A stretch of 64,000 nt of DNA, taken from Desulfobacteraceae bacterium. GTDB lineage: Bacteria > Desulfobacterota > Desulfobacteria > Desulfobacterales > Desulfosalsimonadaceae. The stretch lies in assembly GCA_014237465.1 (NCBI GenBank), contig JABZFM010000008.1, positions 62,001 through 126,000 of the forward strand, written 5' to 3'. The translations under genes and the position numbers were made by a program. The notes below the pieces were generated by a model. That model was given only the letters and a program-made list of their open reading frames with translations, searched no databases and was not told where the DNA came from. Below are positions 43,348-52,158 of this stretch, piece by piece (the first letter of the stretch is position 1; every line of letters begins with the position of its first letter).

Positions 43348-44081
43348 TCTTCCACGCCAGCATCATATGAACCTGCTATTAAAATCAACGTATTCTATGC
43401 AAGTAAAATTTTTCTGTCAATTTAATAAAACTTCGGTGTTAATAAAACTCCGGCGCATTGAAACTTTTCCTTTCATATGAACTATTAATCAAATCAAAAA
43501 TAACCGGTTTGAAGCTTAGGGTTCACGAAGAAATAAATACACATTTTCTTAAAGTCGAGGCACCCGGCCGTCAAGGCACGAGAAGGGCGAATAGCTGGCT
43601 ATTTAACCGCCGAGAAACGCAGCCGGATGGGATGGATCGGCGCATCAAAATGTGAAGTTATTTTTGAGTGGGCCCTTAATATATTGGCCGCCGAGGTGCT
43701 GGAACATCGCCGGCAGCTTAACCCTTCCTGACGCGGCGGGAAAATGTGTATTTTCAACTATTTAAGAACAAGCTCGAAAATATCTGCAATACCGACATGA
43801 AAATTATCACAGCATCATTTTATATAATTATAAAAAAATCGGCCGGAACTTCCTTGACTTTGTATTTTTTTTCATGTTTTATATCTTTTTCTTTTTTTAA
43901 GATGCCTGATCTGTTTTGTTGGTCACCTTAATAAAAAATGCCCGTATGAATTAATATTAAAGAAACTAATGATATACACTTGAAATAACATATTTTCCGG
44001 TTCTGTTTAAGATCTTCCGCATCGTACAGAAATCTAAAACGGTAGATATTGTTTGTTTCGCTTACAAAGGAGGGAAGCCTC
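43348..44081. other. 734-base gap upstream of metV with a repeat-like GC-rich island
   Basis: The longest gap in the window. Around 43550-43735 lies a GC-richer block with AAAGTCGAGGCACCC, CCGTCAAGGCACGAG, GGCTATTTAACCGCC and GAAACGCAGCCGG. This has the same plan as the other inverted-repeat elements (CAAGGC..., central AT-rich palindrome, ...ACGC) but with unclear ends. The remainder (43740-44081) is AT-rich and presumably carries the metVF-Hdr operon promoter. No coding potential was recognised, although frames of about 60 codons exist. Confidence 0.45.
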
Positions 44082-44759
44082 GTGATTGTTGCAGAAAGAA
44101 AACCTTTTGATGAAATCAAGGAATTGATTCACGGCTATAAAAAAGTTCTGGTCGTCGGGTGCGGAACGTGTGTTGCGGTCTGCCTGACCGGTGGTGAAAA
44201 AGAAGTCAGCGTTTTAAGCGCTGAGCTTAAATTAAGCAATAAAACAGAATCCGCCCCGGCAACGTTTGGGGAAGCCACGGTTCAACGACAATGCGACTTT
44301 GAATTTTTAGATGAGATCAAGGATATCGTGGGTGAATATGATGCCCTGCTTTCCATGGCATGCGGCGCCGGTATCCAGTTTTTAGCTGAACGCTACCCGG
44401 AAATCCCGGTTTTTCCAGCTGTGAACACTACTTTTATCGGTGTCAACAAGGATGTCGGCTGGTACGAAGAACGCTGTAAAGCCTGTGGTACATGCGTTCT
44501 TGGCATGACCGGCGGCATCTGCCCGGTAACCATGTGCGCCAAAAGCCTGTTTAACGGTCCCTGCGGCGGAACAAACCATGAAAGTTGCGAGATTAACTCT
44601 GATCAGCCCTGCGCGTGGCATATGATCTATACCCGGCTTGCCAAACAGGGACGCCTGGACAATATCATAAAAATTTGTCCGGCAAATGACTGGCGCAATC
44701 AGAAGCCTCAGACACTGGTTCAACCGGGTTATGAGGAACGAAAAGCATCAGCAGAGTAG
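44082..44759 (+). CDS. metV: MetV, methylene-tetrahydrofolate reductase small subunit
   Basis: A 225-residue iron-sulfur/zinc protein of the MTHFR C-terminal family (MetV), partner of MetF in acetogens and Desulfobacterota using the acetyl-CoA pathway. GCGTCVAVCLTGGEKEV at the start, CKACGTCVLGMTGGICPVTM and LFNGPCGGTNHESCEI contribute the cysteine ligands. The start is GTG 44082, not the upstream frame from 44049: AGGAGGG lies seven bases before the GTG. MetF follows after 97 bases, then HdrA-, QmoB- and HdrD-like genes. The likely role is to pass electrons between MetF and the Hdr-like proteins during interconversion of methylene- and methyl-tetrahydrofolate. Direction depends on growth mode. 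Confidence 0.9.
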   Translation: MIVAERKPFDEIKELIHGYKKVLVVGCGTCVAVCLTGGEKEVSVLSAELKLSNKTESAPATFGEATVQRQCDFEFLDEIKDIVGEYDALLSMACGAGIQFLAERYPEIPVFPAVNTTFIGVNKDVGWYEERCKACGTCVLGMTGGICPVTMCAKSLFNGPCGGTNHESCEINSDQPCAWHMIYTRLAKQGRLDNIIKICPANDWRNQKPQTLVQPGYEERKASAE

Positions 44760-44856: not shown

Positions 44857-45780
44857 ATGAAATCAGGAAGCACACTTGAAAAGATATTAACAGCCGGACA
44901 CTTTGCTTTCACCGGGGAACTGGGTCCCCCCCGCGGTTCAAATATTGAAGCCATCAAGAAAAAGGCAGCGCCTTTAAAAGGGATGGTTGATTCGGTAAAT
45001 ATTACTGATAACCAGACTGCCGTTGTGCGTATGTCCAGCTGGGCAGCTTCTTTGTTTGCCATTTCCGAAGGACTTGAGCCGAACTACCAGATGGTATGCC
45101 GTGATCGAAACCGTCTGGCCATGCAGGGTGATATCCTGGGCGCATATGCCCACGGGATCAGAAATATGCTGTGCCTGTCCGGCGACCACCAGCAGTTTGG
45201 TGACCACCCCCAGTCCAAAGGGGTTTTTGATATTGATTCCACCCAATTGATCCAGATGGTCAAGAACATGCGGGATGAAGGAACATTTTTAAACGGACAG
45301 GAAATTGATGACGCGCCAAAAATGTTTATCGGCGCTGCGGCAAACCCGTTTGCAGAGCCCTTTGAATGGCGGATTTTCCGGCTGGCCAAAAAAATCCAGG
45401 CCGGCGCTGATTTTATCCAGACCCAGTGCGTTTTCAACATGGAAAAAATGCGGGAATGGATCAAGCGCGCCAATGACATGGGATTAACCGAAAAAACGTA
45501 TATTCTTGCCGGTGTCACCCCCATGAAGAGCCTTGGTATGGCGCGGTATATGAAGGCCAAAGTACCGGGAATGGATGTACCGGACAATATTATCGACCGC
45601 CTCAAGGGTGTGGACAAGAAAAAGCAGTCTGATGAGGGTATCAAAATTGCCTGTGAACAGATTGAAGAATTCAAGGAAATGAAGGGCGTTGCCGGCGTTC
45701 ATCTAATGGCAATCGAATGGGAGCACAAAGTTCCTGAAATTGCTGAGCGGGCAGGCGTACTCCCGAGGCCACAGGTATAA
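44857..45780 (+). CDS. metF: Methylene-tetrahydrofolate reductase large subunit
   Basis: A 307-residue FAD-containing TIM-barrel enzyme that interconverts methylene- and methyl-tetrahydrofolate. Typical segments are FTGELGPPRG, DSVNITDNQTAVVRMSS, LCLSGDHQQFGDHPQ and IQTQCVFNMEKMREW, and AGVTPMKSLGMARYM. Compared with the E. coli NADH-dependent enzyme, it occurs with metV as the second subunit, which in acetogenic-type enzymes provides iron-sulfur centres. In this operon the electron partner is probably the HdrA/QmoB-like proteins rather than NADH directly. GAGGAACAGATT before ATG 44857 gives the start. It belongs to the methyl branch of the Wood-Ljungdahl pathway, reductive or oxidative. Confidence 0.95.
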   Translation: MKSGSTLEKILTAGHFAFTGELGPPRGSNIEAIKKKAAPLKGMVDSVNITDNQTAVVRMSSWAASLFAISEGLEPNYQMVCRDRNRLAMQGDILGAYAHGIRNMLCLSGDHQQFGDHPQSKGVFDIDSTQLIQMVKNMRDEGTFLNGQEIDDAPKMFIGAAANPFAEPFEWRIFRLAKKIQAGADFIQTQCVFNMEKMREWIKRANDMGLTEKTYILAGVTPMKSLGMARYMKAKVPGMDVPDNIIDRLKGVDKKKQSDEGIKIACEQIEEFKEMKGVAGVHLMAIEWEHKVPEIAERAGVLPRPQV

Positions 45781-45847: not shown

Positions 45848-47083
45848 ATGAAAGCGAAAAATGTCATGATCATCGGCGGGGGAATCGCCGGGATGACAGC
45901 TGCCTGGGAGCTTGCCGAAGCAGGATTAAATGTAGATCTTGTTGAAAAAAGCGGCTTTCTGGGCGGCCATGCCATCCAGTATACCTGCAAAGCGACAGCT
46001 GAATGTCTGCAGTGCGGGGCATGTTCCGTGGAAAAAATGCTTAAAGACGTTGTCGGAAACGACAAAATAAATGTTCTTTTATCCACTGAAATCGAAAATA
46101 TTGAAAAAAATAATGGATACTCAATAAAAATAAAAAAAAGCGCTGCATTCATTGATGGTAAAAAGTGTACCAATTGCGGTATTTGCTTTGACAAACTAAA
46201 AGAGAATGAAGTCATCATACAGGGATACTCAAAAAATAACGCGCCCCTGTATGCGGTCAACCGGGAAAAAATTGATGAAAATAAAATTGCTTTAAAAGAT
46301 GTCTGCCCGGAAGGGGCGATATCCGTATCTGATAAAGCATCCTATGAAGATCTAACTGCAGACGCCATCGTCGTTGCCACAGGTTTTGATCCGTTTAACC
46401 CTGAACGCAAGGGCACTTACGGATACGCAAAATTTTCCAATGTGATCAGCGGACTAGAGCTTGAACGGATTAAACGTCAAAGCGGATTTCCGGCCAGACC
46501 ATCAGACGGCCAGGCAGCACAAAAAATTGCATTTATCCAGTGCGTCGGCAGCCGGGATGAAAATCTGGGCAATCTGTGGTGCTCTCAGGTCTGCTGTCCT
46601 TACGCACTCCGAACCGCAGAGTCACTCAAGCACAAAAACCCTGACCTGGATATCACGGTATTTTATATGGATATCCAGAACACCGGCAAAAGCTTTCCCG
46701 AATTTTATGAAACATGCAAAAATGACATCCGGTTTATCCGGAGTATTCCGGTCGACATTTTTCCGGCTGAAAATGACAACCTGAATATGCGTCTTTTTGA
46801 TGAAGCCCAAGGCACCACAACAATGGAAACATTTGATCTGGTTGTACTTTCCATCGGCATCATGCCGAATTCAGAAAATGAAAAACTTTCCACGCAAATG
46901 GATATCGCCCTTGACGCGGACGGTTTTTTCAAAAACTCTGAAGGACTCAATAAAACTTCAACCTCAAATGATGATATATTTATTGCCGGCACCGCACAGG
47001 GTCCGAAAAATATTGCCGCTTCAATGGCGCACGCCGGTCAGGCCGCCAGCGGAGTCCTGAAATATCTGGGGGTGACCAAATGA
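45848..47083 (+). CDS. HdrA/QmoA-like FAD protein
   Basis: A 411-residue flavoprotein of the heterodisulfide-reductase subunit A / QmoA family. The FAD site is IIGGGIAGMTAAWELAEAG at residues 9-27, with FLGGHAIQYTC and the cysteine-rich CKATAECLQCGAC just after it. A ferredoxin-like insert carries CTNCGIC (residues 103-109) and a lone DVCPEGAI, so only part of the usual two-cluster set is present. The second half repeats FAD-binding elements (AIVVATGFDPF, VVLSIGIMPN, IFIAGTAQGPKNIAASMAHA). It is shorter than methanogen HdrA and closer in size to QmoA. ATG 45848 follows AAGGAGTG. It overlaps the next gene by four bases and probably forms a flavin-based electron relay with it. Confidence 0.88.
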   Translation: MKAKNVMIIGGGIAGMTAAWELAEAGLNVDLVEKSGFLGGHAIQYTCKATAECLQCGACSVEKMLKDVVGNDKINVLLSTEIENIEKNNGYSIKIKKSAAFIDGKKCTNCGICFDKLKENEVIIQGYSKNNAPLYAVNREKIDENKIALKDVCPEGAISVSDKASYEDLTADAIVVATGFDPFNPERKGTYGYAKFSNVISGLELERIKRQSGFPARPSDGQAAQKIAFIQCVGSRDENLGNLWCSQVCCPYALRTAESLKHKNPDLDITVFYMDIQNTGKSFPEFYETCKNDIRFIRSIPVDIFPAENDNLNMRLFDEAQGTTTMETFDLVVLSIGIMPNSENEKLSTQMDIALDADGFFKNSEGLNKTSTSNDDIFIAGTAQGPKNIAASMAHAGQAASGVLKYLGVTK

Positions 47084-48738
47084 ATACAAATACAAAACTA
47101 CAAACGGATATGGAAAAAATAGACATGGCGACTGATATTGCTGTTATTGGCGGTGGCTATATTGGTCTCAAGGCAGCTTCCCGAATTTCAGAAAGCGGGT
47201 ATAATGTCATCCTGGCACCGCAGCATAATGACACGGACTTAAATTTCTCCATATTGGATGTCCCCTTAACAGAAATGGACCGGATAAAAGCCCTTGAAAC
47301 CGAAGTTGCAAATAACACGAATGTGGAAATATTACCCATGTCCACCCTGGTTGAAGCCAAGGGCGTACCCGGAGATTTCACATTAAAATTTGTATCCGCC
47401 GACACGGTATTAGAAAAAAAAGCAGGTGCTGTTGTTGTTGCCACGGACACCGCTGTCAATCCTTTAAATCACATATACGGCCTGAACCCGGCCCCGAATG
47501 TCGTTTCTTTATCTGAATTTGAAAATCTTCTGGCATCAGAAGAGACAAAAAAGGAGATTCAAAACAACGAAAAAACCGTCGCTTTTCTCGTGGGCTTTGC
47601 CCATGAAGGCAGTCCGCTGTTAATGAAACGCGTTTTAAACAGCGTATCTGAACTTGTCGGCATGGACGGGTGCAGTGCTTATGTTTATGTGAACAATATT
47701 AAAGTTGCCGATGACGGGTTGGAAAGACTTTACAAGCAGTGCAGAGACAACGGCACAATTTATTTCAAACTGCAGAAAGCGCCGACAATTATACAGGAAA
47801 ATGAAAATTTAAGCGTCACCTTTCATGATCCTGTGATCCGCAATGACATCGAACTCAATCCGGATATCATTGTCTACGAGGAAAGCCTGATCGCAGATAA
47901 AACAAATCTTTCCCTGGCCGAAACCTTGCGAATCGATCCGGGGCCCATGGGTTTTCTGCAAAAAGAAAATGTCCACCGGCTGCCGGTCAATTCCAACCGT
48001 GAAGGGATCTTTGTTGTTGGGTCGGCCCGGGACGTTCAGGGTTTATCAAAATCCTGGATTGATGTTGATAATATGGTGCTGCGCGTCAAACAACTCATCG
48101 GGGACGGAACGAAATCGATTTCTACAAAGGCTGTGGTTGACCGTGAAAAATGTACCATATGCCTGACCTGCTACCGCTGCTGCCCCCATGGTGCAATTTC
48201 CTGGGATGATAAAGCGATTATATCTTCACTCGCCTGCCAGGGATGCGGCATATGCGCCAGTGAATGTCCCATGGAGGCCATCCAGCTCATTGATTTTACA
48301 GATGCTGAAATGACAGAGCGTATCAAAGAGGCGGCTGCGGTTGAGGCGCCAAACGCACCTAAAATTGTGGCATTCTGCTGCCAGAACTCTGCTTATGAAG
48401 CGGGTATGGCGGCCAAAGCATTTAATTATGAGCTTCCGGCAGGTCTTCAACTGATAAAAGTGCCGTGTGCAGGGAAAGTCGATATCCATTATATTCTTGA
48501 CGCACTTGTTGAAGGTGCGGATGGTGTTCTGGTTCTGGCCTGTCATCATGGAAACTGTAAATCCGAATCCGGCAACACGTATGCGCAATGGCGAATTAAT
48601 GATGCATATCGGAAACTTGCACAAATCGGAATTGAAAAGGACTGTCTGGAATTTGCAACCCTTGCTTCGAATATGGCAAATGATTTTGCAAGAATTGTTA
48701 TTGACATGGAAAAAAGAATCGGTCAAAAGAAGGATTGA
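47080..48738 (+). CDS. QmoB/HdrA-MvhD-like flavo-iron-sulfur protein
   Basis: A 552-residue fusion protein. Residues 16 to about 345 are a Rossmann FAD domain (DIAVIGGGYIGLKAASRISE, VVVATDTAVNP, EGIFVVGSARDVQG). Residues 360-410 hold two [4Fe-4S] motifs, CTICLTCYRCCPHG and CQGCGICASECP. Residues 435-545 resemble MvhD, the [2Fe-2S] subunit that couples Hdr to hydrogenase: IVAFCCQNSAYEAG, KVPCAGKVDIHYIL, GVLVLACHHGNCKSESGN. The domain order is that of QmoB of the APS-reductase-linked Qmo complex, but no qmoC-type membrane subunit or aprAB genes follow; metVF precede instead. An electron-transfer or bifurcation role with MetVF is therefore more likely. The start overlaps hdrA (ATGA). Confidence 0.88.
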   Translation: MNTNTKLQTDMEKIDMATDIAVIGGGYIGLKAASRISESGYNVILAPQHNDTDLNFSILDVPLTEMDRIKALETEVANNTNVEILPMSTLVEAKGVPGDFTLKFVSADTVLEKKAGAVVVATDTAVNPLNHIYGLNPAPNVVSLSEFENLLASEETKKEIQNNEKTVAFLVGFAHEGSPLLMKRVLNSVSELVGMDGCSAYVYVNNIKVADDGLERLYKQCRDNGTIYFKLQKAPTIIQENENLSVTFHDPVIRNDIELNPDIIVYEESLIADKTNLSLAETLRIDPGPMGFLQKENVHRLPVNSNREGIFVVGSARDVQGLSKSWIDVDNMVLRVKQLIGDGTKSISTKAVVDREKCTICLTCYRCCPHGAISWDDKAIISSLACQGCGICASECPMEAIQLIDFTDAEMTERIKEAAAVEAPNAPKIVAFCCQNSAYEAGMAAKAFNYELPAGLQLIKVPCAGKVDIHYILDALVEGADGVLVLACHHGNCKSESGNTYAQWRINDAYRKLAQIGIEKDCLEFATLASNMANDFARIVIDMEKRIGQKKD

Positions 48739-48833: not shown

Positions 48834-50153
48834 ATGGCTGAACCTGCTATCAAACTTGGCGGAAAGAAAAAAAGTACATTTATAGATAAGGTAAAGAAAA
48901 TTCTGCCGGAAGGCGGAAACCTGAATCTTTGCCTGACCTGTGGTGCCTGCTCATCAGGATGCCCGGCAACGGGACTTGAAGGAATGGATCCACGAAAATT
49001 TCTTCGCATGGCGGCATTAGGAATGGATGAAGAAATCATGAGCACGCCATGGGTGTGGATGTGCACTATGTGCCAGCGATGCGTGTATGTCTGCCCAATG
49101 AAAATCAACATTCCCCAACTGGTTTACAATGCCCGTGCGACCTGGCCCAGAGAGAAACGACCCAAGGGAATATTGGGATCATGTGACATGGCGCTGAAAA
49201 ATGAAAGCTGCAGCGCAATGGGCACCGCCCCGGATGATTTTACATTTGTGGTTGAAGATGTTCTTGAAGAATACCAGGAAGCACAGCCGGAATTCAAGGA
49301 TATGCAGGCCCCCATTGACAAAAAGGGTGCTGAATTCTTTTTAAACCAGAATTCTAGAGAACCGGTCACCGAACCGGATGAAATGCTGCCCCTGTGGAAA
49401 ATCCTCCATTTGGTTGGTGCTGACTGGACATACGGCTCCAAGGGATGGGGTGGTGAGAACTATTGTATGTTTCTTTCCGATGATGATGCCTGGAAACATA
49501 TTGTCCAGACACAAACTGATCAGACCCATGAATTGGGGTGCAAAACATATCTCAATACCGAATGAGGGCACGTTACATTCTCAGTCCGGTTCGGACTGCA
49601 AAAATTTAATATCGATCATCAGTTTGAAGTAAAAAACATTTATGAATACTATGCAAAATGGATCCGTGAAGGAAAATTAAAAGTTAATTCAGACTGGAAC
49701 AAGGATCTGAAAGTAAAATTTACGGTTCAGGATCCCTGCCAGATCGTACGAAAAAGTTTTGGTGATCCCATCGCAGAGGATCTGAGGTTTGTTGTCAAAT
49801 CGGTTGTGGGAGAAGAAAATTTTATCGACATGACCCCTAACCGCTCAAATAATTTCTGCTGCGGCGGTGGCGGCGGGTTCCTTCAGGCAGGATATAAAGA
49901 CGAACGTCTGGAATATGGCCGGTTAAAAGATGAACAGATTAAAGCCACAGGCGCGGACTATTGTATTGCGGGATGCCATAATTGCCATGCGCAAATCCAT
50001 GAACTGAGCGAACACTATGGTGGTCACTATCCGGTTGTTCACTTGTGGACATTGATCTGTCTTTCCCTTGGCATTCTCGGGCCAAATGAACGGGAATACC
50101 TGGGCGACGATCTCAAAGAAGTGAACGTTTTTCACCCGGAAACAGCAATGTAA
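48834..50153 (+). CDS. HdrD-like iron-sulfur protein with in-frame TGA read as selenocysteine (Sec244)
   Basis: One frame of 440 codons, 439 residues long, if TGA 49563-49565 is read as Sec; both sides are in the same phase and complement each other. Residues 33-43 and 77-87 carry [4Fe-4S] motifs CLTCGACSSGCP and CTMCQRCVYVCP. The second half has a CCG domain: Cys302 (VQDPCQ), Cys342-Cys343 (NNFCCGGGGG) and CHNC (381-384), ligands for the non-cubane cluster of Hdr catalytic subunits. The TGA falls in N-T-E-(U)-G-H-V, where related proteins have Cys in ECGH. A 7-bp hairpin starts 17 bases downstream, its loop 24 bases after the TGA. It closes the metVF-Hdr operon and is probably the thiol/disulfide or iron-sulfur output module. 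CGGAGG precedes ATG 48834. Confidence 0.88.
49582..49598 (+). promoter_or_regulatory. Bacterial SECIS-like hairpin for the TGA at 49563
   Basis: CAGTCCG (49582-49588), loop GTT, CGGACTG (49592-49598): a perfect 7-bp stem with a 3-base loop beginning with G. The loop starts 24 bases after the last base of the TGA, inside the range known for bacterial SECIS elements. It lies within the coding sequence (codons for FSVRFGLQ), as expected for bacteria. Confidence 0.75.
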
Positions 50154-50181
50154 TTAGATAATTATCATCTTAAGATCATCA

Positions 50182-50211
50182 GAGGGCGCTGTCTTTCAGC
50201 GCCCTTTTTTT
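50182..50211 (+). terminator. Rho-independent terminator after the metVF-Hdr operon
   Basis: AGGGCGCTG and CAGCGCCCT form a 9-bp stem around TCTTT, followed by seven T residues. It closes the operon after the selenoprotein gene. Confidence 0.93.
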
Positions 50212-50308: not shown

Positions 50309-51538
50309 ATGAAAATCAAGACCATCGAACTCTACCATGTGTCCATTCCATTAAAACAAACCTTCTGGCCTTCATGGATTCCGGGCTATCCTCAGACCCA
50401 TAACCGGTTTACATTAATCAAACTCATCACGGATGAAGGGATTACCGGGTATTCCGCCGGCACCTGCATGGGTAAAGAACGCGAAGGCCTAGGCGACCTG
50501 CTGGGCGGATACCTGATCGGCGCGGATCCCACGGACATTAACCGAATCCAGAGTCTATTAAAGCAGGCCGGATTTCTGGGATGGCGAAACTTCTGGATTG
50601 AAGCCGCCTGCTGGGACATTATCGGGAAAAAAGAAAATAAACCGGTATATGAGCTTTTAGGCGGCAGAGTACGGTCCATCGATGTATATCTTTCCACCGG
50701 CGAAATGCATGAACCGGAAAAACGGGTGGATGAATTGCTTGCCATGTCCGAAAGAGGCTATAAAACAGCGAAAATCAGGGTCAAAAATAATACCTTAAAA
50801 GAGGACATCCGCCACATTGAAGTGATCAGCAAAGGGGTTGGCGACAAATTATACTTAGGCGTGGATGTGAACCAGGGTTGGCTGGTCTCTATTGTGGACC
50901 GGGTGCCGGCCTGGGATTTGAACCGGGCCGTCCAGTTTGCGGCTGCCTGCCATGATAACGGGATCAAATGGCTGGAGGAACCCTTAGATTCCAGAGATTA
51001 TGATGGAAATGCCGCACTGCGGAAACAATCAAAAGTTAAAATTTCCGGTGCGGAACTCAACTACGGGTGGGATGAGCTGAAAATCATGTTTGAAAAAGAC
51101 TGTTTTGATATTTACCAGCCGGACGCCACGTTTGCCGGTGGTATTGCCCAGGTCAAGCAGGTGATTGACAAATGCATTGAAACGGATCGCGCATTCAGCC
51201 CCCATACATGGAGCAACGGCATCGGGTTTTACATCAACTGGAATCTTGCTTTGGCCGATCCGCGGGACAGTCATCCACTGGAATACCCTTTGGAAGAACC
51301 CTCATGGATACCGGAATTCCGCGACGGCATCATTGATCCGATTCTGCCGGATACCAACGGTCAGCTCCAGCCCTTTACCCGGCCGGGACTGGGATTTGAA
51401 ATCAACCGTAAAATGCTGAAAAAATACGGCCGGCGTTTTTTCAAGCTCACGGAATTCGGGTTGAAAATCAAGGTGATCCGGGAAAAGGGGGTGAAGGCGG
51501 CCCTGGATTTGAAGAAACGGAAAAAAGGCGGTACATAA
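50309..51538 (+). CDS. Enolase-superfamily enzyme (mandelate racemase/muconate lactonising type)
   Basis: A 409-residue enzyme of the enolase superfamily. The N-terminal capping domain is followed by a barrel with KTAKIRVKN, metal ligands Asp in GVDVNQGW, Glu in WLEEPLDS and Glu in ISGAELNYG, and a conserved His in FSPHTWSNGIG. The KxK-type motif plus a late His resembles the mandelate racemase subgroup, whose members racemise or dehydrate carboxylic acids such as sugar acids. The exact substrate cannot be read. Compared with the typical 370-390 residues it has a basic C-terminal extension (FGLKIKVIREKGVKAALDLK). It is a single-gene unit with a GGGGG site before ATG 50309. Confidence 0.88.
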   Translation: MKIKTIELYHVSIPLKQTFWPSWIPGYPQTHNRFTLIKLITDEGITGYSAGTCMGKEREGLGDLLGGYLIGADPTDINRIQSLLKQAGFLGWRNFWIEAACWDIIGKKENKPVYELLGGRVRSIDVYLSTGEMHEPEKRVDELLAMSERGYKTAKIRVKNNTLKEDIRHIEVISKGVGDKLYLGVDVNQGWLVSIVDRVPAWDLNRAVQFAAACHDNGIKWLEEPLDSRDYDGNAALRKQSKVKISGAELNYGWDELKIMFEKDCFDIYQPDATFAGGIAQVKQVIDKCIETDRAFSPHTWSNGIGFYINWNLALADPRDSHPLEYPLEEPSWIPEFRDGIIDPILPDTNGQLQPFTRPGLGFEINRKMLKKYGRRFFKLTEFGLKIKVIREKGVKAALDLKKRKKGGT

Positions 51539-51553
51539 AAAAAGCACAAGGTG

Positions 51554-51823
51554 TTACTCGAATAAATCAGAATGGGTACCGGTTCTTTCAAAAATAATTT
51601 CAGAACCCGATATTTTGTAAATCATCAACCAATCAGGCTTTATATGGCATTCTCTCCTGCCTTTATAATTGCCTAATAATTTATAGTCCTTATAAACAGC
51701 ATCAAGCGACTCTTCATTTACAAGTTTTGAGATGACTTTCTTGATCAACGCCAGAGGGCTTCCGCGCTTTTCCATTCTTCTCAAATCTTTTGCAAATTGC
51801 CGTGGATAAGATGGTCTTCGCAT
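51554..51823 (-). CDS. YafQ/RelE-type mRNA interferase toxin
   Basis: An 89-residue toxin of the RelE superfamily, YafQ type. The pattern PSYPRQFAKDLRRMEKRG at the start, YKDYKLLGNYKGRRECHIKP in the middle and WLMIYKISGSEIIFERTGTH near the end is that of YafQ, with His (HIKP), Asp (PDWL) and the final RTGTHSDLF carrying likely catalytic residues. It would cleave mRNA on the ribosome. Its ATG abuts the TAA stop of the antitoxin gene (TAAATG), so the pair is translationally coupled. It is convergent with the enolase-superfamily gene 15 bases away, without a visible terminator between them. Confidence 0.88.
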   Translation of the reverse strand: MRRPSYPRQFAKDLRRMEKRGSPLALIKKVISKLVNEESLDAVYKDYKLLGNYKGRRECHIKPDWLMIYKISGSEIIFERTGTHSDLFE

Positions 51824-52084
51824 TTAAATCCCCAAGTTATCGAACATATCATCCGCATTATCACAACGGACCAGATTCCGTTGTGCGTCTGTATCTTTAA
51901 ATACCTTTTCAGTTGTCTTATTGGGGATTACAACGTTAAAGGGTAGCCCATTTCTTAGCTTAACTTGCCGATAGAAAAGATTTAATGCTTCTGTCGTGGT
52001 AAGCCCCATTTTTTGAAAAAGTTTTTCAACGTCTTCTTTCAAACGAGGTTCTATTCTTGCTCTTATTGTCGCTGTTTTTGCCAT
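51824..52084 (-). CDS. RelB/DinJ-type antitoxin
   Basis: An 86-residue antitoxin of the RelB/DinJ family. MAKTATIRARIEPRLKEDVE is the ribbon-helix-helix N-terminus, MGLTTTEALNLFYRQVKLRN the conserved dimerisation core, and GLPFNVVIPN the usual following segment; the acidic C-terminus (DADDMFDNLGI-like NADDMFDNLGI) would block the toxin. The frame is open to 52282, but ATG 52084 is chosen because GGAGGTGA stands six bases upstream and gives the family N-terminus. The operon would be autoregulated from the region just upstream, which also contains the thrS terminator hairpin. Confidence 0.9.
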   Translation of the reverse strand: MAKTATIRARIEPRLKEDVEKLFQKMGLTTTEALNLFYRQVKLRNGLPFNVVIPNKTTEKVFKDTDAQRNLVRCDNADDMFDNLGI

Positions 52085-52158
52085 AATTATCACCTCCGAA
52101 AAAATAATACCCAAATGGGCCACACAACTCAAGATTTTTTTGCAGCCCATTCGGACAT

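Follow-up and report, generated by a model that had tools for sequence, protein, structure and literature searches.

A probable selenocysteine codon in an HdrC-HdrB fusion gene encoded beside metVF in a Desulfobacteraceae bacterium

An in-frame TGA at 49563-49565 raises the question of whether a gene ends there or continues through a selenocysteine (Sec) codon, and, if it continues, what kind of iron-sulfur (Fe-S) protein is made and what it might do beside the genes metV and metF. Positions refer to the window, the whole stretch of 64,000 nucleotides that was analysed.

Reading frame and gene context

Translation of 48834-50153 on the plus strand gives a single frame of 439 residues with the TGA as its sole interruption, in which 48834-49565 comprises 243 codons and the TGA, and 49566-50153 continues in the same phase and ends in TAA. 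The codon stands in the translated context L-N-T-E-(TGA)-G-H. The original prediction, made from the sequence, described two same-phase frames split by the TGA and a perfect 7-bp stem with a 3-base, G-first loop 24 bases past it; the coordinates of the frames were exact on recheck and the hairpin was reproduced exactly. The gene had also been assigned to a metVF-Hdr operon, and metV, metF and two HdrA-type genes do lie upstream, all on the plus strand (Table 1). Terminator-like sites were about as numerous in the region as expected (10 found, 9.5 expected), and the one at 50181-50207, 3' of the gene, has the most pairs. Further downstream, at 51553-52100 on the minus strand, small genes give the impression, from the sequence and open reading frames (ORFs), of a RelE/RelB-type toxin-antitoxin pair.

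Table 1. Positions of the features of the locus in the window
Feature	Position	Strand	Basis
metV-like, partner subunit of MetVF methylene-THF reductase	44049..44759	+	PF12225 121.6 bits, ORF
metF, methylenetetrahydrofolate reductase	44857..45780	+	PF02219 130.7 bits
HdrA-like FAD/Fe-S subunit, N-terminal and middle part	45848..47083	+	NF040770 HdrA2 291 bits, below cut-off of 1100
HdrA C-terminal part with two Fer4 and MvhD/FlpD domain	47080..48738	+	NF040770 219 bits (below cut-off); PF02662 115 bits
Probable Sec-containing HdrCB-fusion (DsrK/TmcB/HmcF/HdrD-like) subunit, 439 residues, UGA read through	48834..50153	+	
Ferredoxin-type (HdrC-like) domain, residues 30-91, two [4Fe-4S] sites	48921..49106	+	PF13183
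Degenerate first CCG domain, borders approximate; 244 the only cluster Cys position kept throughout	49386..49619	+	
UGA codon, very probably selenocysteine 244, motif E-U-G-H	49563..49565	+	homologue comparison
Probable SECIS hairpin, 7 bp, loop GUU	49582..49598	+	comparison
Second CCG domain, residues 297-388, Cys 302, 342, 343, 381, 384; noncubane [4Fe-4S] site by homology	49722..49997	+	PF02754 42 bits
Intrinsic terminator-like hairpin 3' of gene	50181..50207	+	11 pairs, 7 G-C, then T run

Codon 244, hairpin and selenocysteine machinery

At the aligned codon 244, homologous loci from across the phylum (n = 248) have TGA (207), TGC (37) or TGT (4) and no other codon; 207 against 41 is not a frequency, since the rows were partly hand-picked and those with Cys codons, which have no stop, were fetched on purpose. 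Removal of 34 duplicates left 214 distinct proteins, 178 with Sec and 36 with Cys. An alignment of homologues for Cys or Sec at this position had been proposed as a check on the original prediction, and these codon counts bear it out. The TGA had been placed at the Cys of an E-C-G-H motif, which agrees both with the restriction of homologues to TGA and Cys codons and with the E-C-G-H that the host's own DsrK, TmcB and HmcF have at this column. In a class-wide draw, a homologue at E ≤ 1e-30 was found in 369 of 389 genomes, nearly every row among the matches listed being full length with one internal TGA, and the 30 loci from the class-wide search all had TGA at codon 244. The nearest named relatives were Desulfobacteraceae/Desulfococcaceae. 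Other in-frame stops were confined to the C-terminal end (17 in 15 of the 248 loci, all 174-191 codons past 244).

Had a TGC or TGT been turned into TGA in sequencing or assembly, one base would be enough to restore Cys, and Cys forms of the protein exist; yet the same TGA is found in a second copy in the host genome (L047:9657-10973, equivalent to G000:C69:17656-18972; 90% identical) and in other genomes, and this conservation disfavours an error, an explanation that was rejected and has next to no probability. A true stop, at which the standard code would end the frame to leave a pseudogene, or two products, a ferredoxin-type protein of 243 residues and a further piece from downstream, is very improbable. 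The TGA is kept in 80 of 80 loci from a named genome collection (the best 80 of 476 relatives, a set that overlaps the 30 above), the codon swaps with Cys codons only, and the 3' part evidently evolves as coding sequence under purifying selection. Comparison of the window copy with 120 loci (94 distinct DNA sequences) gave 2344, 1182 and 11778 substitutions at codon positions 1, 2 and 3 after the TGA, and nonsynonymous to synonymous codon differences were 2537:10355 after the TGA and 5558:11505 before it. The true stop was rejected on the conserved TGA, the coding selection on the 3' part and the Cys-only alternation.

On a tree built quickly from 151 rows (117 with Sec, 34 with Cys; root not inferred), at least 12 changes between the Sec and Cys states were needed, of which 10 were forced by starred branches. 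One genome (G169) has an 83% identical Sec copy (L050, 7338-8651) and an 82% identical Cys copy (L048, 5785-7104). The two are sisters with support of 100 inside an otherwise Sec group, which suggests a local Sec-to-Cys change. The hairpin is lost in the Cys copy, and neither copy has hdrA or metF adjacent.

The stem of the candidate SECIS element pairs 49582-49588 with 49592-49598 (seven perfect pairs) around the loop GTT at 49589-49591, whose first base is the 24th base after the TGA, with 23 nt between the UGA and the loop. The hairpin conforms to the bSECIS rule in the available text of PMC13188914, which calls for a small apical loop 16-37 nt from the UGA with a G at its first or second position. 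No Rfam match was obtained in the window at gathering thresholds, and the element was therefore assessed by comparison instead. A loop beginning with G occurs in 130 of 130 distinct Sec 45-mers (protein identity ≥ 0.5). Among the 60 of these that align without gaps, 95.2% of cells are paired and the covariation score was 0.369, against 0.163 shuffled, with none of 500 shuffles as high; slid partner registers scored 0.116 or less. Two of the five covariation measures used were weaker, namely pairs varying on both sides (5 of 8; equalled in 9 of 500 shuffles) and further pair types (10; as high in 149 of 500 shuffles). All 95 close Sec rows form at least six of eight pairs, against 4 of 18 close Cys rows, and only 7 of 22 distant Sec rows do so in the exact register. 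Independent pairs from the tree (n = 10) gave a modest result, a mean of 6.4 favouring one direction, 0.4 the other and 3.2 showing no difference (median p 0.031, range 0.008-0.22). Relative to synonymous recodings the mean z was -1.56 for the 117 Sec rows and +0.25 for the 34 Cys rows, with a Mann-Whitney p of 9e-13 that ignores relatedness. The window's own hairpin is unremarkable alone by this measure (z -0.9), so that it is its conservation that carries weight. The SECIS-like hairpin of the original prediction is thus backed by covariation and by loss in most Cys homologues.

The host genome (5.09 Mb, 70 contigs, 99.96% complete) was searched for the Sec machinery. A search for selA, selB, selC and selD elsewhere in the genome had likewise been proposed as a check on the original prediction, and the outcome was positive: selA (614 bits), selB (369), selD (362) and tRNA-Sec (75 bits) were all present above cut-off. 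The host selD itself carries one in-frame TGA. Eleven further matches to the tRNA-Sec model RF01852 fell below its cut-off (L010-L016) and are presumably other tRNAs. A changed code or a suppressor, by which UGA would encode Trp or some other amino acid, is of negligible probability and was rejected, given the Sec machinery and the appearance of Cys codons only as alternatives at 244. In addition, 14 of the window's 31 frames with at least 250 open codons (some of which are not genes) end in TGA, which makes a changed code unneeded.

The alternation of Sec and Cys codons, the full machinery and a covarying hairpin that is mostly lost in Cys homologues together make UGA 49563-49565 very probably selenocysteine 244, as originally predicted. 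SelB and Sec-tRNA would read the codon as Sec, directed by the hairpin at 49582-49598. Confidence is high in this decoding taken together with the assignment of the product to a family of soluble, DsrK/TmcB/HmcF/HdrD-like HdrC-HdrB fusions.

Domains, cysteines and possible role

Its domains and cysteines mark the predicted product as a soluble fusion of HdrC and HdrB types, akin to DsrK, TmcB and HmcF, in which one of two CCG sites is intact. The best NCBIfam models were HmcF, TmcB and DsrK at 166, 160 and 117 bits, none of which reaches its cut-off (750, 735 and 400, respectively). PDB sequence matches linked the N-terminal part to HdrC and the C-terminal part to HdrB, with no chain named DsrK among them. 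All six structures matched by Foldseek at E ≤ 0.001 were B chains of Hdr complexes (HdrB: 5odc_B, 8rvu_b). The AlphaFold2 model was moderately confident (mean pLDDT 78.8, pTM 0.83), and in it the predicted strand 237-241 and helix 245-257 around residue 244 have a counterpart around C381 in strand 376-379 and helix 382-394.

Positions that are Cys or Sec throughout the 151 rows comprise the eight ferredoxin Cys, residue 244 and the five Cys of the second CCG domain (CCG2), two of which are missing in one gapped row. The first CCG site has lost the Cys of its five-Cys motif, with only 244 kept throughout. The original prediction had all CCG cysteines of an Hdr catalytic subunit following the stop; this is correct for the five of one CCG domain (302, 342, 343, 381 and 384) and does not extend to both domains of a full catalytic subunit. 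Its description of the protein as HdrD-like, apt for the HdrB/HdrC fold and the second CCG domain, should be narrowed, since HmcF, TmcB and DsrK are the best models and the site in the first CCG domain is dismantled. That domain lacks the cysteines, and on this ground a canonical HdrD, which would bear two noncubane clusters, was rejected.

When profiles were aligned globally against 25 HdrB-like proteins, all of them below the TIGR03288 cut-off (0 of 59 genomes had one above it), residue 244 matched the leading Cys of their first CxxC, in the first CCG site, with 98.1% probability. With the first CCG domain (CCG1) taken by itself, two local profile alignments gave weak results (0.65% and 6.7%) in which 244 was matched to no cluster cysteine, and comparison of CCG1 and CCG2 profiles gave no informative alignment. 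Residue 244, the only CCG1 Cys position kept, aligns to the CxxC of HdrB-like proteins and is Cys in the host's DsrK, TmcB and HmcF; it thus appears to be the last chalcogen left of a cluster site that has been dismantled.

Two functions of Sec244 were weighed. In one it would not be a free selenol but would, with Cys117 and Cys211, ligate a further Fe-S site in the first CCG domain. In favour, 244 aligns with a ligand Cys of the HdrB-like first CCG domain, and C117 and C211 are Cys in 113 of 113 close rows; this role is nevertheless unlikely, as both are absent from 38 of 38 distant rows, all of which keep 244, and the host DsrK has V and G at those columns, yet Cys at 244. The reading of Sec244 as a catalytic selenol is on balance the probable one, and the analysis leans to it over a cluster ligand. 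A strictly conserved Cys has very probably been exchanged for a more reactive selenium residue in an Fe-S enzyme subunit, and its repeated exchange at 244, as counted on the 151-row tree, singles out the likely reactive atom.

The proposed enzyme would combine an HdrC-like ferredoxin domain carrying two [4Fe-4S] clusters with an HdrB-like half that has one noncubane site, in CCG2, and Sec244 in place of the other. Electrons would pass between the co-encoded HdrA/MvhD flavin and the ferredoxin clusters, and on to the noncubane cluster of CCG2. Sec244, on the opposite side of the same cleft, may attack a disulfide or trisulfide to form a selenosulfide, the other sulfur being taken up at the cluster, and two one-electron steps would cleave the S-S bond. 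In HdrB, two noncubane clusters clamp the heterodisulfide; one HdrB-type cluster would here be replaced by a selenol. A parallel would be the action of DsrK on DsrC-trisulfide, or that of ferredoxin:thioredoxin reductase. A lone catalytic Sec244 selenol beside one noncubane cluster was not met as a proposal in the literature searched, the coverage of which was partial.

Placed in a metVF operon, the enzyme would have as its likeliest task to couple the interconversion of methyl-THF and methylene-THF in the Wood-Ljungdahl pathway to a disulfide pool, with DsrC as the leading candidate substrate. The host genome encodes a DsrC with both C-terminal Cys as well as the CODH/ACS gene cdhC, which makes DsrC a reasonable substrate. 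Besides this DsrC (at C24), six further matches to the DsrC/TusE model lie in two tight groups (G000:C20:35894-37304 and 51432-52052). DsrMK is stated to reduce DsrC-trisulfide (PMC10504309), and the methylene-THF/methyl-THF couple, with an E0' of -200 mV (PMC5861303), is a reasonable donor or acceptor.

Gene neighbourhoods bear on this coupling in both directions. A metF at least 60% identical occurs within 8 kb in at least 24 of the 80 named loci, which rank best among 476 relatives, Desulfonema magnum (L064) being a named locus with metVF; 24 is a lower bound because contig ends cut many loci. Three gene orders are represented: metV-metF-hdrA-hdrA/mvhD upstream in 7, metV-metF directly downstream in 12, and hdrA, mvhD, metV and metF further downstream in 5. 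Within about 6.5 kb of 123 loci, HdrA/FlpD-type genes were neighbours in 64, metV in 27 and metF in 27. Many copies have no hdrA or metF nearby, including the second host copy, which has none of the window's partner genes near it, so that a MetVF-tied role is not universal. The protein could instead be a general soluble disulfide (DsrC) reductase common to several donors, its adjacency to metVF being incidental, as the frequency of such isolated copies and the loci that adjoin HdrA-type and further electron-transfer genes without metF would allow. The recurrence of metF in three gene orders speaks against this, since one or two metF per 4-5 Mb genome would, by our estimate, give well under one case by chance, and a general reductase is a somewhat doubtful possibility. 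Coupling of MetVF to disulfides is put forward tentatively, as a role that the enzyme may possibly have.

Two other features of the neighbourhoods were observed. A conserved protein, mostly of 120-140 amino acids, is encoded on the same strand 28-459 nt downstream of the Sec gene in 26 of the 123 loci, the second host copy included; most of the 26 have no hdrA or metF nearby, and the one example tested (L052:2920-3288) had no Pfam match. Distant homologues in other families of the phylum (L199, L205-L226), most of them with Sec, lie in a different electron-transfer setting, beside HdrA-type, FrhB-like, NAD-binding/DHODB-type and Fer4_22 proteins.

To our knowledge, the mechanism of the DsrK/TmcB/HmcF/HdrD-like enzyme class is unsettled. 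A wider and quite unlikely reading would have Sec244 mark the catalytic chalcogen of this whole class, in which a thiol or selenol, standing in for the second noncubane cluster of HdrB, would break the S-S bond opposite a single noncubane cluster. The selenium version, present in many Desulfobacterota and fed by MetVF and HdrA/MvhD, would then tie the oxidation of methyl-THF (or the reduction of methylene-THF) directly to DsrC-bound sulfur by a soluble route. If true, sulfite reduction and the Wood-Ljungdahl pathway would be joined in solution. Since the same Cys is found in DsrK, TmcB and HmcF, the selenium form would offer a spectroscopic and kinetic handle (77Se) on the noncubane cluster and the disulfide. 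For completely oxidising sulfate reducers, the link to metVF hints at a possible destination of electrons at the methyl-THF step, and the placement beside metVF suggests a testable role linking carbon and sulfur metabolism.

Comparison with known systems

DsrK, TmcB and HmcF are parts of membrane complexes. They are like the window protein in having two cubane sites, one CCG site and a single E-C-G-H Cys (Sec here), and differ in that the window protein scores far below their cut-offs and no membrane subunit is among the Pfam matches of the operon. The host genome has separate DsrK (760.9 bits), TmcB (808.2 bits) and HmcF (935.8 bits) proteins, each above its cut-off. The likeness to DsrK is incomplete because the host DsrK has Asp at the column of Cys384. 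Methanogen HdrB and HdrD resemble the window protein in how the C-terminal half folds and in the five Cys of the second CCG motif, and differ in the first noncubane cluster site, which is gone in the window protein.

A family of Fe-S oxidoreductase-like selenoproteins with the motif UGH (PTHR43551) has been predicted with high confidence (PMC13188914), and a UGH selenoprotein named GlpC is encoded in the Deltaproteobacteria operon glpC-hdrA-frhD-frhG-frhA with a hydrogenase (PMC1794560). As described in the available text of these sources, the published family resembles the window protein in the Sec of U-G-H, in an Fe-S protein with ferredoxin and CCG domains, and in its hdrA operon; the glpC operon differs from the present one, in which metV and metF are among the partners and a hydrogenase large subunit is lacking. 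HdrD4 of Desulfobacterium autotrophicum HRM2 is, as given in part of the report on that genome, Sec-containing and like the window protein a soluble HdrCB fusion (PMC2702500). HdrABC is encoded beside metF in Seep-SRB1g, in a report whose main text has neither the word selenocysteine nor selenoprotein (PMC10553843). An account of a Sec-containing HdrD-like protein beside metVF was not met in the literature searched, which was covered in part, and absence from print is not claimed.

The MetFV-HdrABC-MvhD complex of Moorella thermoacetica (PMC5861303) is, in the available text, like the window operon in that MetV, MetF, HdrA and MvhD are encoded together on one strand, and differs in that its separate HdrB and HdrC are replaced here by one fused protein, probably with Sec and with a single CCG cluster site. 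A Sec protein of the UGH/HdrD kind is thus already published, and the metVF context gives this new member a testable role.
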